A DNA stretch of 64,000 nucleotides from Hylemonella sp. (GTDB lineage Bacteria > Pseudomonadota > Gammaproteobacteria > Burkholderiales > Burkholderiaceae_C). Positions 43,994-61,577 of the stretch are shown here, piece after piece. Numbering within the stretch: position 1 is the stretch's first letter; each line of letters opens with the position of its first letter. Where the stretch lies: assembly GCF_027532185.1 (NCBI RefSeq), contig NZ_JAPZSV010000009.1:62001-126000 (forward strand). The letters are read 5' to 3'. The position numbers and the translations under genes were made by a program. Under the pieces are notes generated by a model, which did no database searches, had not been told where the DNA came from, and saw only the letters and a list, made by a program, of their open reading frames with translations.

Positions 43994-44002
43994 AAGACGA
44001 CG

Positions 44003-44953
44003 GTGGAACAGGCCCCATGGACACACACCACCGTCTTGTTGAACGAAGCGATCGAAGCCTTGCTCAACAAGCCGCAGGATCTGGCGGACGTGCCCGCGTC
44101 CGATCCGGCCGATGGCGCCTATGTGGATGCCACCTTCGGGCGCGGTGGTCACTCGCGTCTGCTCCTGTCGAGGCTGTCGCCACGCGGGCGGCTGACCGCC
44201 TTCGACAAGGATCCACAGGCCATCGCCGAGGCGCAGACGATCACCGACGCGCGCTTCGCCATCCGCCACGAGGGCTTCCGGCACCTGCACGCGCTGCCGC
44301 CGGCCAGCGCGGACGGCATCCTCATGGACCTGGGCGTGAGCTCGCCCCAGATCGACGACCCCACACGCGGCTTCAGCTTCCGTTTCGACGGCCCGCTGGA
44401 CATGCGCATGGATACCACGCGGGGCCAGAGCGTGGCGCAGTGGCTGGCGACGGCCGACACACAAGCAATCGCGGAGGTGATACGTGACTACGGTGAAGAA
44501 CGGTTTGCTGGCCCGATTGCAAAGGCGATTGTGGCGCGCCGACAGGAACGGGGCCCAGTTTCAAGCACCGCTGAACTGGCCCAGCTCGTGGCTGACACGG
44601 TCAAAACCCGCGAGCCGGGCCAGAACCCTGCAACGCGCACATTTCAGGCTCTTCGGATTTTCATCAACGCCGAGCTTGAGGAGCTGCAAGAAGCGCTAGA
44701 GGCCAGCCTCGATGTGCTGCAACCCGGAGGACGGCTGGTCGTGATCAGTTTCCACTCGCTGGAAGACCGCATCGTCAAACAGTTCATCGCGCAGCATTCG
44801 CGCGAGGTCTACGACCGCCGCGCACCTTTTGCCGCGCCCAAGCCCATGAAGCTGCGTGCGCTGGACCGCATCAAGCCCAGCGCCGCCGAGGTGGCGGCCA
44901 ACCCGCGTGCGCGCAGCGCCATCATGCGTGTGGCCGTGAGGACGACAGCATGA
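44003..44953 (+). CDS. rsmH: 16S rRNA m4C1402 methyltransferase
   Basis: A 316-residue methyltransferase (also called MraW). SAM motif [14 protein letters not shown] (about residues 41-54), the DLGVSSPQ block (about 113) and [12 protein letters not shown] at the end are diagnostic. It modifies N4 of C1402 in the ribosomal P site. Start is GTG at 44003 ([16 protein letters not shown]), with AAAGACGAC upstream. Its stop codon overlaps the ATG of an unannotated 53-codon ORF (ATGA at 44950-44953). Confidence 0.96.
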
Positions 44954-45111
44954 GTCGCGAAGTTGCCATGCACCGCATTGCAGGTGGTTTCACCGCCGGG
45001 CCGCCCCAAGTTGAAACGCGGCCCCACGCCCAAGCAAGGCGCAGGGCCAGCCTGCACCTGGGGGCAGGGCGCCACACGCAGTGGGCAATCGTGGGAGCCA
45101 CATTTCCATGA
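44950..45111 (+). CDS. 53-codon bridge ORF between rsmH and ftsL
   Basis: ATG overlaps the rsmH stop (ATGA, 44950-44953) and the TGA overlaps the ftsL ATG (ATGA, 45108-45111). The product starts [10 protein letters not shown], is basic, and ends AIVGATFP; I recognise no family. FtsL begins MTRVNLV and RsmH ends with an AIMRVAV stretch, so both ends weakly resemble their neighbours. It may be a diverged duplicated junction that keeps translation continuous. Confidence 0.45.
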
Positions 45112-45437
45112 CACGTGTCAACCTCGTCCTTCTGCTCGCCGTGCTGGCCAGCGCGCTCTATCTGGTGAGCGTGCAGTACGAGTCGCGCCGGTTGTTTGCC
45201 GAGCTCGACCGTGCCGTGGGCGAAGCGCGCCGCATCGAAAGCGAGCGCGAGCAGCTGGAGTTGGAGAAGCGCCGCCAGGCCACGACGCAGCGGGTCGAGA
45301 AGCTGGCCAAGGACAAGCTGGGCATGCGCCCGGCCAGTCCGGCCATCACCGACTACGTGAGCTACCAGCCCTACAGCGGCACTGTGCCCGCCGGGGCGAC
45401 GGTACAGCCGCGGGTTTCGGGAGGGCGACTCCAATGA
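45108..45437 (+). CDS. ftsL: Cell division protein FtsL
   Basis: A 109-residue bitopic protein. The cytoplasmic part is only a few residues, the membrane helix covers about residues 4-20 (VNLVLLLAVLASALYLV), then a periplasmic leucine-zipper coiled coil (RRLFAELDRAVGEARRIESEREQLELEKRR). FtsL forms a complex with FtsB and FtsQ and activates FtsWI. Placement between rsmH and ftsI is diagnostic. The start is reached by ATGA coupling from the bridge ORF. Confidence 0.93.
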   Translation: MTRVNLVLLLAVLASALYLVSVQYESRRLFAELDRAVGEARRIESEREQLELEKRRQATTQRVEKLAKDKLGMRPASPAITDYVSYQPYSGTVPAGATVQPRVSGGRLQ

Positions 45438-45499
45438 GCCGCCGGGCCGCTCCCAAGGCGCATGGCACCGCAGCCTGCAAGGCGGAGGTGTGCTCATGA
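45434..45499 (+). CDS. 21-codon bridge ORF between ftsL and ftsI
   Basis: ATG overlaps the ftsL stop (ATGA, 45434-45437), and the TGA overlaps the ftsI ATG (ATGA, 45496-45499). It starts MSRRAAPK; FtsI starts MSSRSIQY. The DNA at both starts shares ATGAGC followed by a GCCG core. It contains the GGAGG ribosome site of ftsI. Confidence 0.45.
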   Translation: MSRRAAPKAHGTAACKAEVCS

Positions 45500-47241
45500 G
45501 CAGCCGCAGCATCCAGTACACCTCCAGTCCGCTGCTGGCCAGCCGTACGCCGGTCTGGCGCAGCAAGTTCGTGGTCGCCATGCTGGCGCTGAGCTTTCTG
45601 GTGCTCGCGGGCCGTGCGGCCTACATCCAGGTCATCTCCAATGACTTCTTCCAGAAGCAGGGTCAGGTGCGCTTCGCGCGCACGCTGGAGCTGCCGGCCA
45701 ACCGCGGCCGGGTGCTGGACCGCCATGGCCAGATTCTGGCCACCAGCGTGCTGGCGCCCAGCATCTGGGCCATTCCCGAGGACGTGGACCGCGACCCGAA
45801 GCAATTGCAGAGCCTGGCGCGCCTGCTCGACCTGCCGCTGGCCGACCTCAAGCGCAAGCTCGAGGACGAGGACAAGTCCTTTGTCTGGCTCAAGCGCCAG
45901 GTCGACGAGGGCGTGGCGCGGCAGATCGCCGATCTGGGCATCAAGGGCATCTACCAGCGCAAGGAATACAAGCGCCAGTACCCCGAGGGCGAGGTCGCCG
46001 CGCACCTGGTCGGTTTCACCAATATCGAGGACCAGGGCCAGGAAGGCGTGGAGCTGGCTTTCAACAGCACGCTGGCGGGCAAGCCCGGTTCGCGCCGCGT
46101 GATCAAGGACCGCCTGGGCAGCGTGGTCGAGGCCGTGGGGGCGCAGGTGCCGCCGGTCGAGGGCCGAGACGTGCAGCTGTCCATTGACAGCAAGATCCAG
46201 TTCTATGCCTACCAGCGCCTCAAGCAGGCGGTGCAGGAGAACCAGGCCCAGGCCGGCAGTGTGGTGGTGCTCGACGCCCAGACCGGTGAGCTGCTGGCGC
46301 TGGCCAACTACCCCAGCTACAACCCGGCGCGCCGCCTCAGCCACAAGAACGCGCCGCTGCGCAACCGCGCGCTGACCGATTCCTTCGAGCCCGGTTCCAC
46401 CGTCAAGCCCTTTGTCGCCGCGCTGGCGCTGGAGAAGGGGGTGGTCGCGCCCTCGACGCCCATCCAGCTCAGTGGCAACGGGCGCATGAACGTCGGGAAC
46501 TCGACCATCAGCGACACGCATGCGCACGCCGTGCTGACGCTGACCGAGGTGGTGCAGAAGTCCAGCAACATCGGCATGGTCAAGCTCGCGCAGCAGATGC
46601 CCGCCCGCGACCTCTGGGAGATGTACAGCCAGGTGGGCTTCGGCCAGCGCCCGCAGCTGCCCTTCCCGGGCGCGGTCAGCGGGCGTCTGCGGCCCTGGAA
46701 GACCTGGAAGCCCATCGAGCACGCCACCATGAGCTACGGCTACGGCCTGTCGCTGAGCCTGGTGCAACTGGCCCACGCCTACACCGTGTTCGCGCACGAC
46801 GGCGAGATCATTCCCATCTCCCTGCAGAAGGTGCAAGGAGAGGTGCAGGGCGTGCGCATTCTGCAGGCCCGGCATGCGCGCGCCGTGCGCCACATGCTGC
46901 AGCTGGCGACTGGCCCGGGGGGCACCGCCCCCAAGGCCCAGGCCTTGGGCTACTCGGTGGGTGGCAAGACCGGCACGGCGCGCAAGCAGGAAGGCCGCGG
47001 CTACGCCGACAAGAAGTACCGCAGCTTCTTCGTGGGCCTGGCACCAGTCGCCAAGCCGCGCATCATCGTGGCCGTCATGATCGACGAGCCCGATGCCGGC
47101 AAGATTTATGGCGGCGACGTGGCCGCGCCCGTGTTCAGCGAGACCGTGCAGCAGACCCTGCACCTGCTGGGTGTGCAGCCCGACATCGAGGTCAAGCCGG
47201 CCATCGTGGCGCAGACACCTGCGGGGGAGGAGCGACTGTGA
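45496..47241 (+). CDS. ftsI: Septal peptidoglycan transpeptidase FtsI (PBP3)
   Basis: A 581-residue class B penicillin-binding protein. A single N-terminal helix (about 22-42), a pedestal domain, and a transpeptidase domain with SxxK nucleophile Ser301 (PGSTVKP), SxN in KSSNIG (about 356-358) and KTG at 491-493 (GKTGTA). It crosslinks peptidoglycan at the septum with FtsW. The ATG at 45496 follows GGAGG; a GTG six bases earlier is possible. Its stop overlaps the murE start as TGATG. Confidence 0.97.
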   Translation: MSSRSIQYTSSPLLASRTPVWRSKFVVAMLALSFLVLAGRAAYIQVISNDFFQKQGQVRFARTLELPANRGRVLDRHGQILATSVLAPSIWAIPEDVDRDPKQLQSLARLLDLPLADLKRKLEDEDKSFVWLKRQVDEGVARQIADLGIKGIYQRKEYKRQYPEGEVAAHLVGFTNIEDQGQEGVELAFNSTLAGKPGSRRVIKDRLGSVVEAVGAQVPPVEGRDVQLSIDSKIQFYAYQRLKQAVQENQAQAGSVVVLDAQTGELLALANYPSYNPARRLSHKNAPLRNRALTDSFEPGSTVKPFVAALALEKGVVAPSTPIQLSGNGRMNVGNSTISDTHAHAVLTLTEVVQKSSNIGMVKLAQQMPARDLWEMYSQVGFGQRPQLPFPGAVSGRLRPWKTWKPIEHATMSYGYGLSLSLVQLAHAYTVFAHDGEIIPISLQKVQGEVQGVRILQARHARAVRHMLQLATGPGGTAPKAQALGYSVGGKTGTARKQEGRGYADKKYRSFFVGLAPVAKPRIIVAVMIDEPDAGKIYGGDVAAPVFSETVQQTLHLLGVQPDIEVKPAIVAQTPAGEERL

Positions 47242-48749
47242 TGCAGCGCCTGCATACTCCCGAGCAGGCCGCGGCCTGGCTGCGTGGCCGCGTGCGCGGC
47301 ACGCTGCACACTGACAGCCGGCGCGTGGGCGTGGGCGACGGCTTCATTGCCTGGCCCGGTGCGGCACGCGACGGCCGTCAGTTCGTGCCATCCGCTTTGA
47401 CCCAGGGCGCCGCTGCATGCATGGTGGAAGCGCAGGGCGCCGAACCCTACGGTTTTGATCGGGAGGATGTCGCCGCCTACGCAGGGCTCAAGGCGGACAG
47501 CGGCCCCATCGCCGCCGTCTACTACGAACAACCCTCGCAGCAGATCGAGGTGCTGGCCGTGACCGGCACCAATGGCAAGACGTCCACGAGCTGGTGGCTG
47601 GCCCAGGCCCTGGAGGCCCTGCAGCCCGCGGTGCCCTGCGGCCTGATCGGCACGCTCGGGGTGGGCCGCGTGCCCGCACCCGGCAGCGGAGCGGGCGCCG
47701 CAGTGCAGAGCACTGGCCTGACCACGCCGGACCCCGTGCTCCTGCAGCAGACCCTGCGCCGTTTCGCTGACGAGGGGCTCGAAGCCTGCGCGATCGAGGC
47801 CTCTTCGATCGGCATCGCCGAGCGGCGTCTGGACGGTACGCGCATCCGCACGGCCATCTTCACCAACTTCACCCAGGACCATCTGGACTACCACGGCAGC
47901 ATGGCGGCCTACTGGCAGGCCAAGGCCGAGCTCTTCGACTGGCCCGGCTTGCAGGCAGCCGTGATCAACCTCGACGATCCCAAGGGTGTCGAGCTGCATG
48001 CTGCACTGGCTGGCCGTGATCTCGATCTGTGGACGGTCTCGCTGCGCGCCGACGCCGGCGCACGCCTGAGCGCGCAGGACCTGCGCATGGGCCTGCGCGG
48101 TGTGCAGTTGCAGGTCTGCGAAGGGGCGCAGCGCGTCCCCCTGAGCACCCAGGTGCTGGGCGACTACAACGTCAGCAATCTGCTCGGTGTGATTGCCACG
48201 CTGCGCAGCCTGGGGGTGCCGCTGGTCGATGCCGTGTTGGCCTGCCACGCGCTGCAGCCGGTGCCCGGACGCATGGAGTTCCAGGGCGGTGACGGTTTGC
48301 CGCTGGCCGTCGTGGATTACGCGCATACGCCCGACGCCCTGGCCCAGGTGCTGCAGGCCCTGCGCCCGCTGGCCGCGCAGCGCGGCGGTCGGCTCTGGTG
48401 TGTCTTCGGCTGCGGCGGGGACCGCGATGCGCACAAGCGCCCGCTCATGGGGGCGGCCGCGGCGGCGCATGCCGACCAGATCGTGCTGACCAATGACAAC
48501 CCGCGCAGCGAGTCGCCCGAAGCCATCCTCGCCCAGATCCGCGCGGGCGCGCCGGGGGCACGCGTCGAAGCCGACCGTGCCCGGGCCATCGCCGGGGCGC
48601 TCACGCAGGCCGATGCCCGTGACGTGGTGCTCGTGGCCGGCAAGGGGCATGAGGATTACCAGGAAACGGCGGGCGTGCGCACGCCCTTCTCCGACCGCGA
48701 ACAGGTGGGCCGGGCCCTGCGTGCGCGCCAGGCAGGAGCGCGTGTATGA
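47241..48749 (+). CDS. murE: UDP-MurNAc-tripeptide ligase, meso-DAP adding
   Basis: A 502-residue Mur ligase. P-loop [11 protein letters not shown] (about residue 105), central ATPase domain with the NFTQDHLDYHG motif and the C-terminal DNPR motif in LTNDNPRSE, which selects meso-diaminopimelate rather than lysine. It adds the third amino acid of the stem peptide. It starts at the TGATG overlap with ftsI, and its stop forms an ATGA overlap with murF. Confidence 0.96.
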   Translation: MQRLHTPEQAAAWLRGRVRGTLHTDSRRVGVGDGFIAWPGAARDGRQFVPSALTQGAAACMVEAQGAEPYGFDREDVAAYAGLKADSGPIAAVYYEQPSQQIEVLAVTGTNGKTSTSWWLAQALEALQPAVPCGLIGTLGVGRVPAPGSGAGAAVQSTGLTTPDPVLLQQTLRRFADEGLEACAIEASSIGIAERRLDGTRIRTAIFTNFTQDHLDYHGSMAAYWQAKAELFDWPGLQAAVINLDDPKGVELHAALAGRDLDLWTVSLRADAGARLSAQDLRMGLRGVQLQVCEGAQRVPLSTQVLGDYNVSNLLGVIATLRSLGVPLVDAVLACHALQPVPGRMEFQGGDGLPLAVVDYAHTPDALAQVLQALRPLAAQRGGRLWCVFGCGGDRDAHKRPLMGAAAAAHADQIVLTNDNPRSESPEAILAQIRAGAPGARVEADRARAIAGALTQADARDVVLVAGKGHEDYQETAGVRTPFSDREQVGRALRARQAGARV

Positions 48750-50170
48750 ACGCCCACACCATCATGTTCAACCTCCAGCAGGCGCTGCCCTGGCTGGCGG
48801 GTGCGCGCCTGGTCGGTGACGGCCTCGTGGGCGTGCAGCGGGTGCACAGCGACACGCGTACCCTGCAGCCCGGCGACCTCTTCGTGGCGCTCAAGGGCGA
48901 ACGCTTCGACGCCAACAGCTTCCTCGCCCAGGCCCGGCAGGCCGGGGCCGTGGCCGCGCTGTGCAGCGACGAAGCCGCGCTGCGCGCCAGCGGCCTGAGC
49001 GGCCTAGTCGTGGCCGACAGCAAGGTCGGTCTGGGCCAGCTGGCCACGGGCTGGCGTACGCAGCACAAGCTGCCGCTGATCGCCGTCACGGGCAGCAATG
49101 GCAAGACCACGGTGACACAGATGACGGCCGCCATCCTGCGCGCCTTCAAACCTCAGGCCACGCTGGCCACCGAGGGCAATTTCAACAACGACATCGGCGT
49201 GCCGCTCACCTTGCTGCGCCTGCGCGCCACGCACCAGCTCGCGGTGGTGGAACTGGGTATGAACCACCCGGGCGAGATCGCCCAGCTCGCCGCCATGGCG
49301 CGCCCGACGGTGGCCCTGGTCAACAACGCGCAGCGCGAGCACCTGGAGTTCATGGCCACCATCGAGGCCGTGGCGCGCGAGAACGGCTCGGTGCTCACGG
49401 CTCTGGGCGCCAGCGGCACCGCCGTCTACCCGGCCGACGACCGCTACAGCCCGCTCTGGCACGAACTGGCGGGCGCGCGCGCGCACCTGAGCTTTGCCAT
49501 CACCGAGGATGCCGCGGCGGCCGATGTCAGCTGCAGCGCGCCCAGCTGGACCGGCGACAGCTGGCAGGTGCAGGCGCGCACGCCCGCCGGGCCGCTGAGC
49601 TACCAGCTGCGCGTGGCCGGCCTGCACAACGTCAAGAATTCGCTGGCGGCTGCGGCCTGCGCGCTGGCCGCGGGCGTGCCGCTCTCGCACATTGCTCTGG
49701 GCCTGGAGGCCTTCGAGCCGGTCAAGGGTCGCTCGCGGGCGCTGGCCCTGCGTCTGGCGGGCCGTGCTCTGACCCTGGTGGACGACACGTACAACGCCAA
49801 CCCCGACTCGGTGCGCGCGGCCATTGACGTGCTGGCCGGCCTGCCGGGCCCGCGTCTGCTGGTGCTCGGTGACATGGGCGAGGTGGGCAACGAAGGCCCG
49901 CGTTTCCATGCCGAGGTCGGTGCCTATGCGCACGCGCGCGGCATCGAGCAGCTCTACACCCTGGGCGAGCAGACCGCGCAGAGCGCGGCCCAGTTCCCGG
50001 GCGCGCGTCATTTCGCCGATGCCGAGGCGCTCAACGCCGCCGTGCTACAGGCCCTGCCGCAGCTGGCCAGCGTGCTCGTCAAGGGCTCGCGCTTCATGCG
50101 CATGGAGCGCGTGGTGCAGGCCGTGAGCGCCTACGCCGAACAGAACAAGGAAGAACATCATGCTGCTTAG
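48746..50170 (+). CDS. murF: UDP-MurNAc-pentapeptide ligase (D-Ala-D-Ala adding)
   Basis: A 474-residue Mur ligase with P-loop [13 protein letters not shown] (about residue 112), [13 protein letters not shown], and the [18 protein letters not shown] motif typical of MurF. It completes the pentapeptide in the cytoplasm. ATGA overlap with murE. The mraY start lies inside its last codons (11-nt overlap). Confidence 0.96.
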
Positions 50171-51338
50171 CCTGGCCCAGTGGCTCCAGACCCTTTCGCC
50201 CGAGTTCGGCTTCTTCCGGGTCTTCCAGTACCTGACCTTCCGCGCCGTGATGGCCGCGCTGACCGCGCTGCTCATCGGCCTGCTGGCCGGGCCCTGGGTG
50301 ATCCGCCGCCTGACCGCGCTCAAGATCGGTCAGCCCGTGCGCGGCTACGGCATGGAGACGCATCTGTCCAAGAGCGGCACACCCACCATGGGTGGCGTGC
50401 TCATCCTCCTGGCCATCGGCATCTCGACGCTGCTGTGGTTCGATCTGTCCAACCGCTTCGTCTGGATCGTGCTCTGGGTCACGCTGGGCTTCGGCGCCAT
50501 CGGCTGGGTCGACGACTGGCGCAAGGTGGTCAACAAGGACCCCGAGGGCATGCGCTCGCGCGAAAAGTATTTCTGGCAGTCGGTGGTCGGTCTGATCGCC
50601 GCCTTCTACCTCCTCTTCTCGATTTCCGGCAGCAGCAACCAGGGCGTGTGGGAGCTTTTCATGAACTGGGTTCGCTCGGGCTTCTCGATCGAACTGCCGG
50701 CCAAAGCCGACTTGCTGCTTCCCTTCTTCAAACAAGTCAGTTACCCCTTGGGCGTGATCGGTTTCGTCGTGCTGACCTATCTGGTCATCGTGGGCGCGAG
50801 CAATGCCGTGAACCTCACCGACGGTCTGGACGGTCTGGCCATCATGCCCGTGGTCATGGTGGGCTCGGCGCTCGGTGTCTTCGCCTATGTGACCGGCAGC
50901 GCGGTCTACTCCAAGTACCTGTTCTTCCCGCACATCCCGGGGTCGGGCGAGGTGCTGATCTTCTGCGCCGCCATGGCCGGCGCGGGCCTGGCCTTTCTCT
51001 GGTTCAACACCCACCCAGCCCAGGTCTTCATGGGCGACGTGGGTGCGCTCGCCCTGGGGGGGGCGCTGGGCACCATCGCCGTGATCGTGCGGCAGGAGAT
51101 TGTGCTGGCCATCATGGGTGGCATCTTCGTGGCCGAAGCCCTGAGCGTGATGTTGCAGGTGAGCTGGTTCAAGTACACGAAAAAGAAATACGGCGAGGGC
51201 CGGCGCCTCTTCAAGATGGCGCCGCTGCATCACCACTTTGAAAAGAGCGGCTGGAAGGAGACCCAGGTGGTCGTGCGCTTCTGGATCATCACCATGCTGC
51301 TGTGTCTGGTGGGCCTGTCCACCCTGAAATTGCGATGA
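50160..51338 (+). CDS. mraY: Phospho-MurNAc-pentapeptide transferase (lipid I synthase)
   Basis: A 392-residue integral membrane enzyme with ten helices. Conserved motifs are [15 protein letters not shown] with the catalytic aspartates, [13 protein letters not shown] and [12 protein letters not shown]. The C-terminal [11 protein letters not shown] histidine cluster is diagnostic. It transfers phospho-MurNAc-pentapeptide to undecaprenyl phosphate. It overlaps murF and is joined to murD by ATGA. Confidence 0.97.
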
Positions 51339-53209
51339 ACGACAACGAACGTCCCGACCCTCTGCCCCCGCAGCAGCCGCCTGAGGATCAGGCGGCTTTG
51401 CCGTCTTCTCCGCTGCAAGAGCCGATGGCGACCCCTCAGGACATGCCGCCCGAGGCCGGCGTCGACGCAACGGCTCCCGCGGTCGACGAGGTCGCCGCCG
51501 CCGCGCCGCCGAGCAAGCCGGCCAAGCGGGCGCTGCCCGAAACGCTGACGGCCGCGCAGGACGCCAAGGCCTTCGTGGCCCAGCTCTTCGCCGATGCAGC
51601 CCCGGAGGCCGGCGCGAGCGCCGAGTCTGCGCCCGAGCCGGTGCGCGACAACACGGCGGTCGAATCGGAGGCCACCGAGCAGGACGAGCCCGCACCGCAG
51701 ACACCGGCGTCGCTGCTGCAGGACCGCCATGTGCTGGTGCTGGGCCTGGGCGCTTCGGGCCTGGCCATGGCGCGCTGGTGCGTGCGCCAGGGCGCACACG
51801 TGACGGTGGCCGACACGCGCGAGGCACCGCCGCAGCTGGCGACGCTGCAGGCCGAGCTGCCCCAGGTGGAGTTTCGGGCGGGTGCTTTTGAGGCCAGCCT
51901 GGTCGAGGGGACGGACATCCGCGCCGTCTTCAAGAGCCCGGGCCTGACGCCCGCGGCGGTGGCGCACGTCTGGCAGGCGGCCCAGGCCATCGGTCTGTGG
52001 ACGGGCGGTGAGCTTGATCTTTTCGCCGCGGCCCTGCGCGAGCTGCAGGCCGAGCGTGCTTACGCGCCCAAGGTGCTGGCCGTGACGGGCACCAATGGCA
52101 AGACCACGACCACGGCGCTCACGGGCCAGCTCGTGGAGCAGGCCGGCAAGCGCGTGGCCGTGGCCGGCAATATTGGCCCCAATCTGTTGGACGTGCTCAC
52201 GCAGCACCTGGCCGCCGACACGCTGCCCGAGGTCTGGGTGCTGGAGCTTTCGAGCTTCCAGCTCGACGGGGTGCATGGCTTCGAGCCCACGGCTTCGGTG
52301 GTGCTCAATCTCACGCAGGACCATCTGGACTGGCATGGCGACATGGCCGCCTACGGCGCGGCCAAGGCGCGCATCTTCGGCAGCCGCGGGCTCATCGTGC
52401 TCAACCGAGAAGACGCGGCCGTCATGGCCTTGCTGCCCGAGCCCGTGCGGGCCAAGCTGCAGAAGCCTAAATACCGTGACTACCTGACCTTCGGCGCCGA
52501 CATGCCGCAGCGCCCGGGCGACTACGGCATCGAGATCGTCAACGGCATGGCCTGGCTGGTGCGGGCGCAGGAGGCCGACGAGACGCAGAAGCGCAAGAGG
52601 GGCGAGGAGGAAGAGCTCTTCATCCAGCGCCTGATGCCGGCCGACGCGCTGCGCATCCGCGGCCGCCACAACGCCACCAACGCCCTGGCCGCGCTGGCGC
52701 TGGCCCAGGCGGCAGGCTGCACGCTGGCGCCCATGCTCTACGGCCTGCGCGAATACCGCGGCGAGCCGCACCGCGTGGAACCCGTGGCCATGGTGCGCGA
52801 GGTGGAGTATTTCGATGACAGCAAGGGCACCAACGTCGGGGCGACGGTGGCCGCGCTTAACGGCCTCGGGGCCGAACGCCGCGTGGTGGTCATCCTCGGC
52901 GGCGACGGCAAGGGCCAGGACTTCGGGCCGCTCTACGCGCCGGTGCAGCGCCACGTGCGTGCGGCCGTGCTGATCGGGCGCGACGCGCCGGCCATCCGCG
53001 CCGCCATCCAGGGTACGGGCGTACCCCTGTTGGATGCGGCGAGCCTGCCCGAGGCCGTGCACCTGGCCCAGGCCCAAGCCCAGCCGGGCGACGCCGTGCT
53101 GCTGTCACCGGCCTGCGCGAGCTTCGACATGTTCGAGAACTACGAGCACCGGGCGCGCGTCTTTGTCGAGGCCGTGCAGGCGCTCGTCGATGAAGGAGGG
53201 CTGGCGTGA
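51335..53209 (+). CDS. murD: UDP-MurNAc-L-alanine D-glutamate ligase with long N-terminal extension
   Basis: A 624-residue protein, well beyond the usual 440-500. Residues 1 to about 130 are acidic, Pro/Ala-rich and likely disordered. The MurD core then begins with [17 protein letters not shown] (about 132-148). The P-loop is [11 protein letters not shown] (from about 249) and the catalytic region is [11 protein letters not shown]. An insert after the central domain (near residue 390) also adds length. It adds D-Glu to UDP-MurNAc-L-Ala. The core is intact; the extension's role is unknown. Joined to mraY by ATGA. Confidence 0.94.
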
Positions 53210-54456
53210 CGGCGTTCGCACAGCGCATCCGGGGCTGGTTCGGCCATGCGCCGGCCAAGGATGCCCTGCCTGTGCGCCTGGGGCCGCACGGCTATGGCCG
53301 TAGCGGCAGCCAGCCCGTGCGCCTGTCGGACTTCGACCTGGCGCTGGTCTGGGTCGTCGTGGCCCTGCTGGCCTGGGGCCTGGTCATGGTCTATTCGGCC
53401 TCCATCGCCCTGCCCGACAACCCCAAGTTCTCGCGCTACGCGCACACGCACTTCCTCACGCGCCATCTGCTGTCACTGGCCGTGGCCTTCGTAGTCGCAC
53501 TGATTGCCTTCCAGATTCCCATGGCCAAGTGGGAGAAGCTGGCGCCCTGGCTGCTGCTGGGCTCCCTCGTGCTGCTGGTGGCGGTGCTGATCCCGGGCAT
53601 CGGCAAGGGCGTGAACGGTGCGCGGCGCTGGATCTCGCTGGGGGTGATGAATTTCCAGCCCTCGGAACTGGCGAAGCTGGCCGTGCTGCTCTACGCGGCC
53701 GACTACATGCTGCGCAAGATGGACGTGAAGGAACATTTCTTCCGCGCTGTGGCGCCTATGGGCGCGGCTGTGGCACTGATCGGCGTGCTGCTGCTGGCCG
53801 AACCCGATATGGGCGCCTTCATGGTGATCGCGGTCATCGCCATGGGCATCCTCTTCCTGGGTGGCGTGAACGCGCGCATGTTCTTCCTGATCGCGGCCAT
53901 CCTGCTCGTGGCCTTCATCCTGATGATCGCACTCAGCGAGTGGCGGCGCGAGCGCATCTTTGCCTACCTTGATCCCTGGAGCGAGAAGCATGCCCTGGGC
54001 AAGGGCTACCAGCTCTCGCATTCCCTCATCGCCTTCGGACGCGGCCAGATCTTCGGCGTGGGCCTGGGCGGCAGCGTGGAGAAGCTGCACTGGCTGCCCG
54101 AGGCGCACACCGACTTCCTGCTGGCCGTGATCGGCGAGGAATTCGGCCTCGTTGGCGTGCTGGCCATCGTGACCCTGTTTTTCTGGCTCACGCGCCGCAT
54201 CATGCACATCGGCCGCCAGGCCATCGCGCTCGACCGCGTGTTCGCCGGCTTGGTGGCCCAGGGCGTGGGCGTGTGGATCGGCTTCCAGGCCTTCATCAAC
54301 ATGGGCGTGAACCTCGGCGCGCTGCCGACCAAGGGGCTGACGCTGCCTTTCATGAGCTATGGAGGCTCTGCGATTCTGATGAATCTGGTGGCGGTGGCCA
54401 TCGTGCTGCGGATTGATTACGAAAACAGACAGCTCATGCACGGAGGCCGGGCATGA
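53206..54456 (+). CDS. ftsW: Septal glycosyltransferase FtsW
   Basis: A 416-residue SEDS protein with ten membrane helices. It has a cytoplasmic N-terminus of about 45 residues, the [25 protein letters not shown] motif, and the [18 protein letters not shown] block near the C-terminus. With FtsI it polymerises septal glycan. Start is GTG at 53206 (GTGA overlap with murD). The last codons (ENRQLM) form one arm of a 17-bp inverted repeat that continues past the stop. Confidence 0.95.
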
Positions 54457-54467
54457 GCTGTCTGTTT
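54423..54467. repeat. 17-bp perfect inverted repeat over the ftsW stop
   Basis: AAACAGACAGCTCATGC (54423-54439) is the exact reverse complement of 54451-54467, with an 11-nt loop. The right arm contains the ATGA where the ftsW stop and the bridge ORF start overlap. Two more perfect hairpins follow, each with a GCA loop: CAGCGC/GCGCTG (54482-54496) and ATGTCGCG/CGCGACAT (54498-54516). Confidence 0.75.
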
Positions 54468-54542
54468 CATCAAAATCGACACAGCGCGCAGCGCTGCATG
54501 TCGCGGCACGCGACATGGCTGATGCACGGAGGGCGCTCATGA
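54453..54542 (+). CDS. 29-codon bridge ORF between ftsW and murG
   Basis: ATG overlaps the ftsW stop, and the TGA overlaps the murG ATG (54539-54542), each as ATGA. It starts MSCLFHQN, compare MurG MSKCAL. It ends LMHGGRS, while FtsW ends LMHGGRA. The DNA of the two ends matches at 20 of 23 positions (54436-54458 against 54522-54544). It is best read as a duplicated and rearranged gene junction. Confidence 0.55.
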
Positions 54543-55600
54543 GCAAGTGCGCCCTCATCATGGCTGGTGGGACCGGCGGACATATCTTCCCGGGCCTGGC
54601 CGTGGCCGAAGCCTTGCGGGAAAAGGGCTGGCGTGTGCACTGGCTGGGCCATGCCGCGAACATGGAAGGCCAGCTCGTGCCGCCGCGCGGCTTCGCCTTC
54701 GAAAGCATCGACTTCGGCGGCGTGCGCGGCAAGGGCCCGTTGACGCTGGCCCTGCTGCCGCTGCGTCTGCTCAAGGCGTTCTGGCAGAGCATCCGCGTGA
54801 TCCGCCGCGTGCAGCCGGACGTGATCATCGGTCTGGGCGGCTACATCACCTTCCCGGCCGGGATGATGGGCGTACTGCTGGGCAAGCCCCTGGTGCTGCA
54901 CGAACAGAACTCCGTCGCCGGCATGGCCAACAAGGTGCTGGCCGGCGTGGCCGACCGTGTCTTCAGCGCCTTTCCGGACGCGATGAAGCAGGCCCGCTGG
55001 GTGGGCAACCCTCTGCGCGCGGCTTTTCTGCGGCAGCCGGCACCGGCCCAGCGCTTTGCCGGGCGCGGCGGCCCGCTGCGCCTGCTGGTGGTGGGCGGCA
55101 GCCTCGGCGCGAGGGCGCTCAACGAGGTCGTGCCCCAGGCCCTGGCGCGGCTGCCGGCCACACAGCGCCCGCAGGTGCTGCACCAGAGCGGCGCGACGCA
55201 GATCGAGGCTCTGCGCGCCAACTACGCCGCCGCCGGTGTGCAGGCCGAACTCACGCCCTTCATCGAGGACACGGCGCGGGCCTTCGCCGAGGCCGACATC
55301 ATCATCTGCCGTGCGGGGGCCAGCACCGTGACCGAGATCGCCGCCGTCGGGGCGGCCGCGGTCTTCGTACCCTTCCCGGCCGCGGTGGACGACCACCAGA
55401 CCACCAATGCCCGCTTCCTGGTCGACCGGGGCGCGGGCCTGCTGCTGCCCCAGCAGGACATGAACCCCGAAAAACTGGCCGACATCCTGCAGGTTGCCCA
55501 ACGCACCACCTTGCTGCGCTGGGCCGAAGCCGCCCATCAACTGGCCAAGACCGACGCCACCGAGCAGGTGGTGGCTGCCTGCGAGGAGCTGGCACGATGA
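54539..55600 (+). CDS. murG: UDP-GlcNAc transferase MurG (lipid II synthase)
   Basis: A 353-residue GT-B glycosyltransferase. N-terminal loop [19 protein letters not shown], then [12 protein letters not shown], and the C-terminal [14 protein letters not shown] and [15 protein letters not shown] donor-binding motifs. It adds GlcNAc to lipid I on the inner face of the membrane. The ATG follows GGAGGGCGCTC. Both sides are joined to neighbours through bridge ORFs. Confidence 0.97.
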
Positions 55601-55668
55601 AACACGCCATCCACACATCCACTTCGCCGAAAAACAGGAGTGCCGACCAAATGAGGGAGGCGCCATGA
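55597..55668 (+). CDS. 23-codon bridge ORF between murG and murC
   Basis: ATG overlaps the murG stop (ATGA, 55597-55600), and the TGA overlaps the murC ATG (ATGA, 55665-55668). It starts MKHAIHTS, and MurC starts MKHAIKHI. The first 15 bases of the two differ at two wobble positions only, and a CACATCCACTTCG stretch here mirrors CACATTCATTTCG in murC. It looks like a second, frameshifted copy of the murC 5' end. Confidence 0.55.
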
Positions 55669-57074
55669 AGCACGCGATCAAGCACATTCATTTCGTCGGC
55701 GTGGGCGGCGCCGGCATGTCCGGCATCGCCGAGGTGCTGCACAACCTGGGCTACACCATCTCGGGCTCGGACCTCAGCGACAGCGCCACGCTCAAGCGCC
55801 TGGCGGCTCTGGGCATCCGCACCCGCGTGGGCCATGCCGGCGAACACATCGCCGGTGCCGACGCCGTGGTCACGTCCACGGCCGTCAAGCCCGACAACCC
55901 CGAGGTGCTGGCCGCGCGCGAGAAGAAGATCCCCGTGGTGCCGCGTGCGGTGATGCTGGCCGAACTGATGCGCCTCAAGCAGGGCATCGCGATCGCCGGC
56001 ACCCACGGCAAGACCACGACCACCAGCCTGGTGGCCAGCGTGCTGGCCGAGGCCGGCCTGGACCCGACCTTCGTGATCGGGGGGCGGCTCAACAGCGCCA
56101 ACGCCAACGCACGGCTGGGCAGTGGTGACTACATCGTGGTCGAGGCCGACGAGAGCGACGCGTCCTTCCTGAACCTCATGCCCGTGATGGCCATCGTGAC
56201 CAACATCGATGCCGACCACATGGAAACCTACGGGCACGACTTCGGCAATCTCAAGAAGGCCTTCGTCGACTTCCTGCACCGCATGCCTTTCTACGGCACG
56301 GCCATCCTCTGCACGGATGACGCCGCGGTGCGCGAAATCGTCCCCCAGGTCAACTGCCCGGTCACGAGCTACGGCTTTGACGAGGGAGCCCAGGTGCGCG
56401 CCCTCAACGTCCGCGCCGTCGCTGGCCAGATGCACTTCACCGTGCAGCGGCGCAATGGCGTGGTGCTGCCGGACCTGGACGTGGTGCTCAACCTCGCGGG
56501 CCGGCACAACGTGCTCAACGCCCTGTCGGCCATCGCGGTCGCCGCGGAGCTCGATGTGCCCGATGCGGCGCTGCTCAAGGCTCTGGCCGAGTTCAAGGGC
56601 GTGGGCCGACGCTTCCAGCGCTACGGCGAGGTGGTGGCCAAAGACGGCGGTCATTTCACGCTGATCGACGATTACGGCCACCACCCGGTGGAGATGGCGG
56701 CCACGCTGGCCGCGGCGCGCGGCGCTTTCCCGGGCCGGCGTCTCGTGCTGGCCTTCCAGCCCCACCGCTACACGCGCACGCGCGACTGCTTCGAGGATTT
56801 CGTCAAGGTCATCGGCGAGGCCGACGCGGTGCTGTTGGGTGAGGTCTATGCCGCAGGCGAGGCGCCCATCGTGGCAGCCGACGGCCGCAGCCTGGCGCGC
56901 GCACTGCGCGTGGCGGGCAAGGTCGAGCCGGTTTTCGTGGATGACATCGCGGCCATGCCGCAGGCGATTCTGGACAACGCACGCGACGGCGACGTCGTCA
57001 TGTGCATGGGGGCGGGCTCCATCGGTGGGGTGCCAGCCAAGGTGGTGGAGCTGCAAGGCTCCGTGCAGAAGTGA
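55665..57074 (+). CDS. murC: UDP-MurNAc L-alanine ligase
   Basis: A 469-residue Mur ligase. Rossmann start [18 protein letters not shown]-loop [12 protein letters not shown] (about residue 112), the [12 protein letters not shown] block, [11 protein letters not shown], and C-terminal [12 protein letters not shown] and FQPHRYTRT. It adds L-Ala to UDP-MurNAc, the first peptide step. Its 5' end is partly duplicated in the preceding bridge ORF. GGGAGGCGCC precedes the ATG. Confidence 0.97.
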
Positions 57075-57085
57075 AAGAGGACAGT

Positions 57086-58027
57086 GTGAATCTAGGCAAA
57101 GTTGCCGTGCTCATGGGCGGAACGTCCGCCGAGCGCGACATCTCCATCATGTCGGGCACCGGGGTGCTGCAGGCGCTGCAAGCGCGTGGCGTGGACGCGC
57201 ACGCCTTCGATCCGGCGCAGCGCGATCTCTCGGAACTCAAGCGCGACGGTTACACGCGTTGCTTCATCGCCTTGCACGGGCGCTTCGGCGAGGACGGCAC
57301 GGTGCAGGGTGCGCTGGAGCTGCTGGGCATCCCCTACACGGGCTCGGGCGTCATGGCCTCGGCCATTGCGATCGACAAGGTCATGACCAAGCGCATCTGG
57401 CTGGCCGAGGGTCTGCCCACGCCGCAGTGGCGCAAGGTGGCCAGCGCCGAGGCGGCGCGCGCGGCTTTCTCGGCCCTAGGCGCGCCCATGATCATCAAGC
57501 CCGCCCGCGAAGGTTCGTCCATCGGCCTGACCAAGGTGATGACAGCCGACGAGTGCGAGGCCGCTTACGCCCGCGCCGCCCAGGTCGACGAGCAGGTGCT
57601 GTGCGAGCAGTTCATCAGCGGCGAGGAGGTCACGGTGCCGGTGCTGGGCAGCGGGCCGCAGGCGCGTGCGCTGCCCGTGATCCGCATCGTCGCGCCCGAC
57701 GGCAACTACGACTACCAGAACAAGTATTTCACCGACGAGGTGAAGTACCTCGTGCCCTGCGGCTTGCCCACGGGAGAGGAAGAGCAGATCCAGCAGATCG
57801 TGTTGCGCGCCTACCAAGTGCTGGGCTGCCGCGGCTGGGCGCGGGCCGACGTGATGATTGACGCGCGCACGCGCAAGCCCTATCTGCTGGAGATCAACAC
57901 CGCGCCCGGCATGACCGGGCACTCGCTGGTGCCGATGTCGGCCAAGGCCGCAGGTATCAGCTACGAGGCGTTGTGTGTGCAGCTGCTGCAGGCGGCTGCC
58001 CTGGACCATGGAGGTGCCAGCGCATGA
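57086..58027 (+). CDS. ddl: D-alanine-D-alanine ligase
   Basis: A 313-residue ATP-grasp enzyme. Its N-terminal [20 protein letters not shown] carries the catalytic Glu (AERD), followed by [26 protein letters not shown] and the C-terminal [15 protein letters not shown]. It makes the D-Ala-D-Ala dipeptide used by MurF. Start is GTG at 57086 (NLGKVAVL follows) with AAAGAGGACA upstream; longer frames are shadows of murC. Its stop forms an ATGA overlap with ftsQ. Confidence 0.95.
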
Positions 58028-58806
58028 CCCACCCGCTGCCCGTGCCGCTGGATGTCCGGCTCATGAACCTCACGGCAACGCTGTTGCTGCTGGGCTTCGT
58101 GCTGCTGGCGCTGGTTACGGGCGGGCGCTGGCTGGCGCATCACCCGGTCTTTGCGATCCGCGGGCTCACGGTGCTCGGCGACATCAGTCACACCAGTGCG
58201 CTGACCTTGCGCGCCCAGGTCGCGCCGCAGCTCAAGGGGACCTTCCTCACGGTGGACCTGCACGCGGTGCGACAGGCCTTCGAGGGCCTGCCCTGGGTGC
58301 GGCGCGCGGTGGTGCAGCGTGAATTCCCGAACCGCCTGCGCGTGATCCTGCAGGAGCACCAGGCGGTGGCCTATTGGGGCGAGGAGGGCGAGTCCACCCT
58401 GGTCAACAGCTACGGGGAGGTCTTCGAGGCCAACCTGGGTGAGGTGGAACAGGAAGAGCTGCCCAAGCTGGCCGGCCCGGTGGAACTGTCGGCCGAGGTG
58501 CTGGCCATGCACCGCGCGTTGCAGCCGCTGTTCGACGCGCTGGATCTGCCCATCGAGCGGCTGGTGCTCAGCGGGCGCGGCAACTGGCAGCTCACGCTGG
58601 GCAGCGGCGCACGGCTGGAGCTGGGCAGCGGTGCGGTGACCGAGGTGACGGCGCGGGCGCGCCAGTTCCTCGGCACGGTGACCCAGGTGGCGGCGCACCA
58701 CGGCCGCAAGCTCGACGCGCTGGAGGGCGCGGACCTGCGCTACCCGCAAGGCTATGCCCTGCGCCTGCGCGGCGTGAGCACGGTGATCGCAGACCGCAAG
58801 AACTAG
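58024..58806 (+). CDS. ftsQ: Cell division protein FtsQ
   Basis: A 260-residue bitopic membrane protein. One helix at about residues 14-35, then the POTRA domain ([65 protein letters not shown] condensed here) and the FtsQ beta domain. It recruits FtsB/FtsL and controls septal synthesis. Joined to ddl by ATGA, followed 18 nt later by ftsA. Confidence 0.93.
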
Positions 58807-58824
58807 GAAGAACTGAGACACGAC

Positions 58825-60054
58825 ATGGCAAAAGAGTACAAGGATCTGGTCGTCGGACTCGACATCGGCACCGCCAAGGTGATGGCGGTGGTGGCCGAGG
58901 TTCTGCCCGGCGGGGAGCTCAAGCTCGCCGGTCTGGGCGTGGCGCCCAGCAACGGGCTTAAACGTGGCGTGGTCGTGAACATCGACGCCACGGTGCACAG
59001 CATCCAGCAGGCCCTGAAAGAGGCCGAGCTCATGGCCGACTGCAAGATCACGCGCGTGTACACCGGCATCACGGGCAGCCACATCCGCGGCATCAACTCC
59101 AGCGGCATGGTGGCCGTGAAAGACCGCGAGGTGAACGCGGCCGATGTGGCGCGCGTGGTCGAGACCGCCAAGGCCATCAACATCTCGTCCGATCAGCGCC
59201 TGCTGCTGGTCGAGCCGCAGGAATTCATCATCGATGGCCAGGACGTGCGCGAGCCCATCGGCATGAGCGGCATCCGCCTCGAAGCCAAGGTGCACATCGT
59301 GACCGGCGCACAGAGCGCGGCGGAGAACATCATCAAGTGCGTGCGCCGTTGCGGCCTGGAGGTGGAGCAGCTCATGCTCAACCCGCTGGCCTCCAGCCTC
59401 TCGGTGCTGACCGAGGACGAGAAGGAGCTGGGCGTGGCCTGTGTGGACATCGGCGCTGGCACCACGGACGTGGCGGTGTTCACGGGCGGGGCCATCCGCT
59501 ACACCTCGGTGATCCCGATCGCGGGCGACCTGATCACCAGCGACATCGCCATGGCCCTGCGTACGCCGACCAAGGACGCGGAGGACATCAAGGTCGAGAG
59601 CGGCTACGCCAAGCAGCTGCTGGCCGACCCGGACGTGCAGGTCGAGGTGCCGGGCCTGGGCGATCGCGGCCCGCGCATGCTGAGCCGCCAGGCCCTGGCC
59701 GGCGTGATCGAGCCGCGCATCGAAGAGATCTTCTCCCTCGTGCAGCAGGTGCTGCGCGACTCGGGCTGCGAGGAGGTGCTGTCCTCGGGCATCGTGCTTA
59801 CGGGCGGCAGCTCGGTCATGCCGGGCATGGTGGAGCTGGGCGAGGACATCTTCCTCAAGCCGGTGCGTCGTGGCCTGCCCAAGTACAGCGGTGGCCTGGC
59901 CGAGATGGTGGGCCAGCCGCGTGCAGCCACCGTCATGGGTTTGCTCGAAGAGGCGCGCCTGGCGCGACTGCGCGGCTACAAGGTGGCGGCCAAGCACGGG
60001 TCGGTGAAGACCGCGATGGGGCGCGTCAAGGACTGGTTCATCGGGAATTTCTGA
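58825..60054 (+). CDS. ftsA: Cell division protein FtsA
   Basis: A 409-residue actin-like protein: phosphate-1 VVGLDIGTAKVMAVV, phosphate-2 CVDIGAGTTDVAVF, adenosine motif VLTGGSSVMPGM, and a C-terminal amphipathic helix (RVKDWFIGNF) that binds the membrane. It tethers FtsZ to the membrane and signals to FtsN/FtsW. Length and motifs are normal. The stop is followed one base later by an ATG that opens the first of two chained mini-ORFs before ftsZ. Confidence 0.97.
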   Translation: MAKEYKDLVVGLDIGTAKVMAVVAEVLPGGELKLAGLGVAPSNGLKRGVVVNIDATVHSIQQALKEAELMADCKITRVYTGITGSHIRGINSSGMVAVKDREVNAADVARVVETAKAINISSDQRLLLVEPQEFIIDGQDVREPIGMSGIRLEAKVHIVTGAQSAAENIIKCVRRCGLEVEQLMLNPLASSLSVLTEDEKELGVACVDIGAGTTDVAVFTGGAIRYTSVIPIAGDLITSDIAMALRTPTKDAEDIKVESGYAKQLLADPDVQVEVPGLGDRGPRMLSRQALAGVIEPRIEEIFSLVQQVLRDSGCEEVLSSGIVLTGGSSVMPGMVELGEDIFLKPVRRGLPKYSGGLAEMVGQPRAATVMGLLEEARLARLRGYKVAAKHGSVKTAMGRVKDWFIGNF

Positions 60055-60055
60055 C

Positions 60056-60145
60056 ATGAAGAACAGCTTCAAGTTATGGCTCGCGCGCGGCAGTCCGCAC
60101 CGACGGCGGCGCTGCACCGGTCCCCCGGGGAGACCGCCCTCATGA
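60056..60145 (+). CDS. 29-codon bridge ORF 1 between ftsA and ftsZ
   Basis: Starts one base after the ftsA stop (MKNSFKLWLARG) and ends with TGA overlapping the ATG of bridge ORF 2 (ATGA, 60142-60145). The product is very basic in its middle, with four consecutive Arg codons. A hairpin-forming GGTCCCCCGGGGAGACC stretch lies near its end. Confidence 0.35.
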   Translation: MKNSFKLWLARGSPHRRRRCTGPPGRPPS

Positions 60146-60207
60146 CACAACGAGATCTCGCAATCGCAAGCAACAAGGCAACTGGATACATAGGAGTACA
60201 GACATGA
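60142..60207 (+). CDS. 21-codon bridge ORF 2 between ftsA and ftsZ
   Basis: Starts inside the stop of bridge ORF 1 and ends with TGA overlapping the ftsZ ATG (ATGA, 60204-60207). It reads MTQRDLAIAS at the start and GYIGVQT at the end; FtsA ends FIGNF. The TAGGAG ribosome site of ftsZ lies inside it. Confidence 0.4.
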   Translation: MTQRDLAIASNKATGYIGVQT

Positions 60208-61451
60208 ACATCGACATGATTGAAGACGCCGCATTCAACCTGGGCACCCAGATCAAGGTCATCGGCGTGGGCGGGGGCGGCGGCAACGCCGTCGACCACA
60301 TGATCGAGCGCGAGGTGCAGGGCGTGGAATTCATCTGCGCCAACACCGATGCCCAGGCCTTGAGCCGCAGCAGTGCACACAAGATCATCCAGCTCGGTGC
60401 CAGCGGCCTGGGCGCAGGCAGCAAACCCGAGAAGGGCCGCGAAGCCGCCGAGGCTGCGGTGGCGGACATCCAGTCCGCGATTGCTGGCGCGCACATGCTC
60501 TTCATCACCGCCGGCATGGGTGGCGGCACCGGCACCGGTGCGGCTCCCGTGATCGCGCGCGTGGCCAAGGAGATGGGCATCCTGACCGTGGGCGTGGTGA
60601 CCAAGCCCTTCGACTGGGAAGGCGGCCGCCGCATGACCAACGCCGACGCTGGCCTGACCGAGCTGGAAGCCAACGTCGACTCGCTGATCGTGGTGCTCAA
60701 CGAGAAACTGCAGGAGGTGCTGGGTGACGACATCACCCAGGACGAGGCCTTTGCGCACGCCAACGATGTACTCAAAAACGCCGTGGGCGGCATCGCCGAG
60801 ATCATCAACGTGCCTGGCCACGTCAATGTGGACTTCGAGGACGTGCGCACCGTGATGGGCGAGCCTGGCAAGGCCATGATGGGCACGGCCGCAGCGAATG
60901 GCCCGGACCGCGCGCGCATCGCCGCCGAGCAGGCCGTGGCCTGCCCGCTGCTCGAAGGCATCGACCTCTCAGGCGCCAAGGGCGTGCTGGTGCTGATCAC
61001 CGCGGCCAAGGGCAGCCTCAAGCTTTCCGAGTCCAAGCTGGCGATGAACACCATCCGCGCCTATGCCTCGCCCGACGCGCACGTGATCTACGGCACGGCC
61101 TACGACGACAGCCTGGGTGACCAGATCCGCGTGACCGTGGTCGCCACCGGCCTCTCGCGCCAGGGCATGCGCCGCACGGCGCCGCCGCTGCAGGTGCTGC
61201 GCACCGGGACCGACAACGTGCCCTTCCAGGTGCCCACGCTGAACAATGCCGTGGCGCCGGGCGCGCTGCCCGGCACGCCGGCGCCCGCGGTCATGCCCGG
61301 TGTGCCCCAGCCGGACTACAACGCCATGGCCACGCCCAGCGTCTGGCGCACGCGCGACCGCACCCAGGCCGCGGCCAAGGTCGACGCGCTGTCTTCGGGC
61401 GGCATGGACGACTTCGAGATTCCGGCCTTCCTGCGCAAACAGGCCGACTGA
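60204..61451 (+). CDS. ftsZ: Cell division GTPase FtsZ
   Basis: A 415-residue tubulin homologue. GTP-binding GGGTGTG at 106-112 (GMGGGTGTGAAPVIA), the T7 loop NVDFEDVRTVM, a disordered linker (about 315-395) and the conserved C-terminal peptide DDFEIPAFLRKQAD that binds FtsA and ZipA. It forms the Z ring. TAGGAG precedes the ATG by 9 nt. A strong hairpin after the stop probably ends the dcw transcript; lpxC does not follow directly. Confidence 0.98.
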   Translation: MNIDMIEDAAFNLGTQIKVIGVGGGGGNAVDHMIEREVQGVEFICANTDAQALSRSSAHKIIQLGASGLGAGSKPEKGREAAEAAVADIQSAIAGAHMLFITAGMGGGTGTGAAPVIARVAKEMGILTVGVVTKPFDWEGGRRMTNADAGLTELEANVDSLIVVLNEKLQEVLGDDITQDEAFAHANDVLKNAVGGIAEIINVPGHVNVDFEDVRTVMGEPGKAMMGTAAANGPDRARIAAEQAVACPLLEGIDLSGAKGVLVLITAAKGSLKLSESKLAMNTIRAYASPDAHVIYGTAYDDSLGDQIRVTVVATGLSRQGMRRTAPPLQVLRTGTDNVPFQVPTLNNAVAPGALPGTPAPAVMPGVPQPDYNAMATPSVWRTRDRTQAAAKVDALSSGGMDDFEIPAFLRKQAD

Positions 61452-61460
61452 GTGCAGTGG

Positions 61461-61494
61461 GATGCGCCCCGCCGGATGCGGTGGGGCGCATCTT
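61461..61494 (+). terminator. Hairpin terminator after ftsZ
   Basis: Perfect 10-bp stem GATGCGCCCC (61461-61470) and GGGGCGCATC (61483-61492), followed by TTGGTCT. The U-run is weak, so termination may be partial. Confidence 0.6.
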
Positions 61495-61577
61495 GGTCTA
61501 GGATGACCCGTACCGTCGGTGTGCCGGGCCCGGCATGCCGCCCCGCCATTGCCGCGACCCATGCCCAGGAGCAGTCC

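Follow-up and report, generated by a model that had tools for sequence, protein, structure and literature searches.

Background

Gene pairs in which a ribosome terminates on one gene and reinitiates on the next have been described by Huber et al. (PMC6728339, PMC10666635); in the portions of the cited papers on which this and the following comparisons rest, such pairs share ATGA or TGATG overlaps, carry the Shine-Dalgarno (SD) motif in the upstream gene and lose coupling with distance. In E. coli reporters, reinitiation fell by 80–90% in two gene pairs, and ceased in a third, at a distance of 38 additional nucleotides (nt) (PMC10666635). Those overlaps join gene to gene, whereas we describe here short open reading frames (mini-ORFs), sometimes carried by a dispersed repeat that we call R2, which re-create two overlaps at junctions of the cell-division gene cluster of Hylemonella sp.; the window analysed is the 64,000 nt from 62001 to 126000 of contig NZ_JAPZSV010000009.1. 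Salmonella mgtQ, between mgtC and mgtB, is also a small ORF in an operon gap, tied to downstream translation and to alternative stem-loops, but it starts 51 nt past the mgtC stop in a 219 nt intergenic region, has no 5' overlap and is reported at a single locus (PMC8092293).

Several small repeats are partly similar to those described here. The palindromic elements of Rickettsia (PMC10969869) are, like R2, small and compatible with translation, but they are inserted in frame within genes, whereas R2 is located at gene junctions, on stop/start overlaps, and has its own start, SD and stop. The GTAG-tagged REP repeats (PMC3733652) are palindromic and their ends can lend a stop codon to a flanking ORF; they are 20–40 bp long and supply TAG stops to their neighbours, whereas R2 forms a two-ended relay. 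The beta-proteobacterial repeat element (BRE; 75–91 bp, GC-rich, with tandem copies, in Comamonadaceae and Bordetella) has no function proposed in the available part of its report (PMC3110155), and is likely a relative of R1, a second repeat found here, which agrees with it in size and distribution (about 75–91 bp, dispersed, Betaproteobacteria) when the two are compared by description rather than by sequence. In the open-access literature, judged mostly by title and abstract and with subscription journals mostly outside it, we found no relay account for this cluster and no repeat described at ATGA overlaps. The genes of the cell-division cluster are largely essential. In synthetic bicistronic leader designs, a short leader cistron is engineered so that its stop overlaps the start that follows, and R2 would be their natural, dispersed counterpart.

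Mini-ORFs of the window and the usual state of their junctions

The original prediction, made from the letters of the window, had listed six mini-ORFs together with direct overlaps at murE-murF, mraY-murD and ddl-ftsQ (by ATGA) and at murD-ftsW (by GTGA). When the sequence was re-read these overlaps proved correct, as did the places and lengths of the mini-ORFs, which are as follows:

44950–45111, + strand, rsmH-ftsL relay mini-ORF, 53 codons (by geometry and relatives)
45434–45499, + strand, ftsL-ftsI relay mini-ORF, 21 codons (by geometry, R2 profile and covariance model)
54453–54542, + strand, ftsW-murG relay mini-ORF, 29 codons (by geometry, relatives and peptide constraint)
55597–55668, + strand, murG-murC relay mini-ORF, 23 codons (by geometry and relatives)
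60056–60145, + strand, first ftsA-ftsZ ORF, 29 codons, starting one base past the ftsA stop
60142–60207, + strand, second ftsA-ftsZ mini-ORF, 21 codons, with its stop in the ATGA shared with the ftsZ start

The four single mini-ORFs have ATGA overlaps at both ends; that at rsmH-ftsL, for example, starts in an ATGA shared with the rsmH stop and ends in one shared with the ftsL start at 45108. Overlaps of start and stop by 4 or 1 nt are found at both ends of these four and of the second ftsA-ftsZ ORF. By eye, SD motifs precede the four single mini-ORF starts (GAGGA, GGAGG, GGAGG and AGGAG, respectively), and GGGAG or GGAGG precedes the downstream gene starts of the same junctions; in the ftsL-ftsI mini-ORF it is a GGAGGT that precedes the ftsI start. 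The gaps at the bridged junctions of this genome are 58–154 nt, and since 38 additional nt already reduce or abolish reinitiation in the available E. coli data (PMC10666635), gaps of this size should uncouple the genes unless a relay is present. From the sequence comparisons given below we think it likely that the mini-ORFs are reinitiation relays kept by selection for coupling, which would require that they are translated and that coupling itself is the selected trait, and that R2 is a portable adaptor of this kind.

The source genome (3.33 Mb in 13 contigs) was compared with 80 murG-centred loci from named genomes, making 81 loci with the window, and the 15 cluster genes were placed in each by protein similarity, some loci being without every gene. 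Judged by MurG, a Burkholderiaceae draft genome (95%) is the closest named relative, followed by Curvibacter-like genomes (81–86%). With the window included, a direct -4 ATGA overlap is present in 36 of 69 Comamonadaceae loci at rsmH-ftsL, 57 of 73 at ftsL-ftsI, 49 of 81 at ftsW-murG and 74 of 81 at murG-murC. Because the four bridged junctions are thus usually direct overlaps in relatives, we read the bridges as probable insertions into ancestral overlaps, and the gapped state as derived. The original prediction was right about the geometry, but this origin, and with it the genome-wide repeat, the covarying hairpin and the conserved peptide gene described below, had gone unseen.

Insertions and reading frame

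A strict relay was defined as an ORF that overlaps the upstream stop with its start, and the downstream start with its stop, by 4 or 1 nt in each case. The seven junctions that usually overlap gave 82 gapped cases, 19 of which were dropped as annotation problems: 18 contain no repeat and have a start codon in frame at the upstream stop, and were presumed to have mis-picked starts (15 at murD-ftsW, two at ftsW-murG and one at ftsI-murE), and the other is the murG-murC junction of L076, a draft genome in which murC is split by a frameshift. The 63 insertions kept comprise 51 strict relays, three strict two-step chains, six looser relays, two in-frame N-terminal extensions that both begin at the upstream stop (L041 and L051) and one case with none of these, the murD-ftsW junction of L076, where a draft gene is split. 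Grouping by eye gave 33 insertion events, the L076 case lying outside them, of which 26 are strict, five loose, two extensions and none uncoupled. Shuffled spacers with a random trim of 0–2 bases predict 5.9 strict, 1.9 loose, 6.8 extension and 18.3 uncoupled events (P about 1.5e-16 for strict relays and 3e-14 for any coupling); when L031 is left out, since its observed class had a wider start range than the null, all 32 of 32 events are coupled (P about 2e-12). The claim of the original prediction that bridges exceed chance is upheld by comparison, and its proposal that ribosomes are relayed across the spacers gains partial, indirect support, in that nearly all insertions at overlap junctions rebuild a relay or start in frame; selection for coupling would be expected to produce such a bias.

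At the four junctions that usually do not overlap, 100 gapped cases (24 at murF-mraY, 17 at mraY-murD, four at ddl-ftsQ and 55 at ftsQ-ftsA) contain no strict and 13 loose relays. Strict counts are given first throughout because looser criteria let in short bridges that arise by chance at ftsQ-ftsA and murF-mraY. Two junctions were kept out of both groups, ftsA-ftsZ (discussed below) and murC-ddl, whose 30 cases are 28 in-frame starts, one strict relay and one split gene.

The shuffle suggested with the original prediction, at fixed length and with flanks kept, also gave an excess over the 81 loci, with strict bridges observed in 10 of 16 gaps at rsmH-ftsL (6.6 expected), 6 of 6 at ftsL-ftsI (4.7), 26 of 30 at ftsW-murG (10.7) and 6 of 7 at murG-murC (2.6). 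It discriminates weakly, since the kept flanks and length already yield many bridges, and was dropped as the main statistic. When the frame is randomised as well, the chance of a bridge at the four window junctions is 0.15, 0.27, 0.18 and 0.21, or about 0.0016 jointly. As a background, a simple codon-usage gene caller was run over 400 kb of the same genome; among same-strand pairs with gaps of 15–300 nt, 7 of 143 are bridged, all by ORFs that start with GTG or TTG and none with ATG. In the window the figure is 5 of 26, namely the four cluster junctions and one at 3050.

These numbers bear on the possibility that the open frames are by-products of GC-rich, stop-poor inserts, their ATGA ends arising from target or junction duplication and their lengths from a small number of element types. 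The frequent openness of fixed-length shuffled spacers, the nearly constant length of R2, by which its frame would be inherited, and the seven chance-type bridges of the genome background all fit this explanation. We consider it unlikely, since frame and openness agree in 33 events that involve several unrelated insert types, ftsW-murG indels keep the frame, two of the ORFs are under peptide constraint, and the 100 gaps at usually non-overlapping junctions hold no strict relay at all.

Repeat R2

The ftsL-ftsI insert of the window (45434–45499) is a diverged copy of R2 (profile E 8.2e-9; covariance model 57.9 bits). An initial search used a query copy that stopped short of the 3' ATGA and yielded 67 matches, spread over six genomes; 40 loci were fetched around full or nearly full matches and 42 copies aligned, of which 31 have same-direction coding flanks on both sides and 29 of these are relays, the others being L164, an in-frame extension, and L168, in the source genome, which is neither. 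With the covariance model, 75 of 120 genomes of the GTDB family contain R2, as do 5 of 60 drawn from across the order; two of these five belong to the family, and the other three match weakly (best E 7.5e-7). A further 30 loci, and 40 picked from the top of the family match list, brought the total to 110 loci; these later 70 lean towards complete copies because the covariance model contains both ATGA ends.

The 110 loci reduce to 106 distinct arrays with 130 units, 15 arrays holding 2–5 units. In 85 arrays both flanks are coding, and here R2 relays to the next gene in 71, extends it in frame in 13 and does neither in one; in 18 others a flank was not recognised as coding by the codon model, and three lie at contig edges. 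The relay starts at -4 in 70 of the 71 (at +3 in L232), and in 93 of the 103 arrays away from contig edges the start coincides exactly with a coding gene's stop codon. The length from ATGA to NTGA is a multiple of three in 72 of 88 single units; twelve single units are 70 nt long, and this subtype is mostly fused to the gene downstream. Tandem arrays chain relays (L186, L197). The source genome has nine units at eight places: the window copy, C13:290691 and C11:940438 are relays, as are, by eye, C7:157068, C13:133535 and the two-unit C11:944122–944250, while C13:191087 is a non-relay and another unit lies at C11:271295. Four plasmid records match R2, and in the three examined the annotated downstream start is exactly the 3' NTGA of R2. 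It lies between two ABC permease genes in the Variovorax paradoxus VAI-C plasmid and between ABC ATPase and acyltransferase genes in Diaphorobacter JS3051 pDCB2, and in the Variovorax PBL-E5 plasmid no annotated gene reaches its 5' end. None of the three records annotates the mini-ORF, in gene tables that are incomplete there, and annotation in these records misses this common operon-junction repeat.

Peptide constraint, scored by the share of synonymous codon differences, is not seen in the 69-nt class of R2 (25 of 97 synonymous versus 27.3 expected) and is weak in the 66-nt class (19 of 38 versus 11.5); its absence from the former is as expected if frame, SD and hairpins are what matter. A hairpin of R2 adjoins the SD, and among 40 sequences 22 alignment cells are changed on both sides of a pair (4.6 in shuffled alignments, at most 3 when slid), 12 of them replacing U-A by C-G at a single pair. 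No Rfam match was obtained up to E 0.5 for the R2 loci L169, L186, L238 and L120. NTGA is present at both ends of R2; a longer target duplication has no clear support, the observed head similarity being reached by 27 of 500 permutations.

We put at about even the chance that R2 is a dispersed, probably mobile repeat which targets and duplicates the NTGA of stop/start overlaps and adds a hairpin-bearing mini-cistron with an SD while leaving the hand-over intact; its tandem copies would then be chains of mini-cistrons, and R2 would be the first repeat reported to act as a specialised translational adaptor. If mobile, it would show how a selfish element can avoid polar effects.

We note that the copies fused in frame with the downstream gene, mostly of the 70-nt subtype, include L206, L221–L224 (G042), L226, L227 and L231 (G027), and that L238 (G101:C289) has five tandem units, each running from ATGA to ATGA, between flanks not recognised as coding.

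The ftsW-murG unit

The ftsW-murG insert is a unit present in 22 of the 81 loci, in several genera, and a single match in the source genome rules it out as a genome-wide repeat. Gaps with a single unit are 76, 79, 82 or 85 nt, so that indels preserve the frame. The unit is tandemly duplicated in six loci (L007, L013, L021, L025, L028 and L069); in L007, L013 and L069 the first unit is one base over frame, and the two merge into a long ORF that still ends in the murG ATGA. Its peptide is constrained: between disjoint nearest pairs of sequences, 38 of 66 codons with a single difference are synonymous versus 19.7 expected (36 of 74 versus 21.5 in a DNA-only alignment), and the other two frames fall below expectation. 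Fold and covariation also indicate one hairpin here:

54423–54467, + strand, hairpin with arms 54423–54439 and 54451–54467

In it the 3' end of ftsW pairs with the mini-ORF start, and GGAGG (54442–54446) lies in the upper part. Six of seven sequences fold more stably than all of 200 shuffles, the exception being L026 (z -0.96). In an alignment of 16 sequences 11 of 22 predicted pairs have changed on both sides, giving 53 double-change cells against 16.4 (standard deviation 3.4) in shuffled alignments and at most 16 when slid. Covariation of this kind does not prove an RNA function, because template-switch repair of palindromes could also match the arms.

Strong covariation in this unit and in R2 would agree with the elements being mainly RNA structures, which would hide or uncover ribosome-binding sites or shield the mRNA, with the mini-ORFs secondary. 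We hold this to be unlikely, as structure alone predicts neither the exact ATGA ends and in-frame lengths nor the synonymous bias at ftsW-murG.

The ftsA-ftsZ peptide gene

The first ftsA-ftsZ ORF is, judged by its substitutions, a conserved small peptide gene directly after ftsA. By the same scoring as at ftsW-murG, synonymous codons number 180 of 279 versus 82.6 expected (137 of 285 versus 80.4 in the DNA-only alignment), the other two frames again being below expectation. An ORF of at least 11 codons begins -4 to +9 nt from the ftsA stop in 73 of 74 loci, picked with a preference for the motif LAR..P, which is present in 45 of the 73. Counting listed rows, a profile of the peptide has matches with E below 1e-3 in 32 of the 150 family genomes. 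The window peptide has LWLARGSP close to its start and CTGPP close to its end; it may resemble known arrest motifs and might serve ftsZ as a regulatory or arrest peptide. In Pfam and NCBIfam searches the peptides of rsmH-ftsL, ftsW-murG, the first ftsA-ftsZ ORF and one of L030 gave only a sub-threshold Pfam match (E 0.27), and in Rfam positions 44000–61500 of the window gave nothing above threshold and a single sub-threshold match, inside murC. The second mini-ORF (60142–60207) is not generally conserved. In Acidovorax facilis (L077) an R1 copy lies in frame within the peptide gene, with both conserved ends kept.

That all these ORFs are genes for small proteins with a function in the division cluster, coupling being a mere mode of expression, is suggested by the conserved, strongly constrained ftsA-ftsZ ORF and by the constrained ftsW-murG peptide, but we regard it as unlikely, since it leaves R2 with its unconstrained 69-nt class unexplained and the peptides differ at rsmH-ftsL and murG-murC.

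Proposed relay model

If the mini-ORFs are instead relays, the ancestral ATGA overlap would have allowed a ribosome finishing one gene to restart on the next. Inserts of several kinds (R2, R1, other repeats and partial junction duplications) would then have moved the genes 58–154 nt apart, and those that survived would be open frames that start in the first ATGA, bring a new SD and stop in the second ATGA, so that a ribosome could terminate and restart twice across each. R2 would be a ready-made relay of this form, with its start at the upstream stop, hairpins, the SD GGAGGT and an ATGA. In effect, the insertions would repeatedly test, in nature, whether selection for ribosome hand-over maintains ATGA overlaps, since those seen rebuild a relay or an in-frame start, and the elements offer ready parts for tests of multi-step reinitiation.

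Several observations weigh against this account. The 74 ftsA-ftsZ loci have 10 strict relays, nine chains, four loose relays and one in-frame case, and the other 50 spacers are unbridged. The constrained ftsW-murG and ftsA-ftsZ peptides imply that the peptide may matter beyond relaying. The seven GTG- or TTG-started bridges among the 143 gapped pairs elsewhere in the genome indicate that some bridges arise by chance. As to R2, 13 of its 85 arrays with coding flanks fuse to the next gene, L168 neither fuses nor relays, the relay of L218 depends on a two-codon last link, and, as copies are nearly equal in length, each relay frame comes in part with the element rather than from selection at every insertion.

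Other inserts and minor features

The rsmH-ftsL insert of the window is homologous to that of L007, and the inserts of L007 and L009 match the R1 profile; the window copy itself is below the threshold of that profile and has four partial matches elsewhere in its genome. In L046 and L079 the rsmH-ftsL junction holds a different repeat, with GGGAGAGGG and GGTGAGGG parts, that likewise forms a relay. The first codons of the murG-murC mini-ORF copy the murC start (MKHAI...), a pattern also found in L006, L021 and L038 and clearest in the last two (MKHAIRHIHFVE in one of them), which suggests that this insert arose by duplication of part of the murC start. Just 5' of the ftsZ SD, at about 60177–60185, is GGCAACTG, which by eye is present in many of the 74 loci.

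R1 is about 86 nt long and has 6, 43, 6 and 6 matches in four genomes at E <= 1e-4. One further copy is in the window:

3057–3129, - strand, reverse-orientation R1 inside another bridged junction, with the upstream stop at 3050

The ORF that bridges this junction over the reversed R1 runs between the stop at 3050 and a TTG start and reads MTMHPHVHHFVYSLPPEGAQASLGAARQEA.

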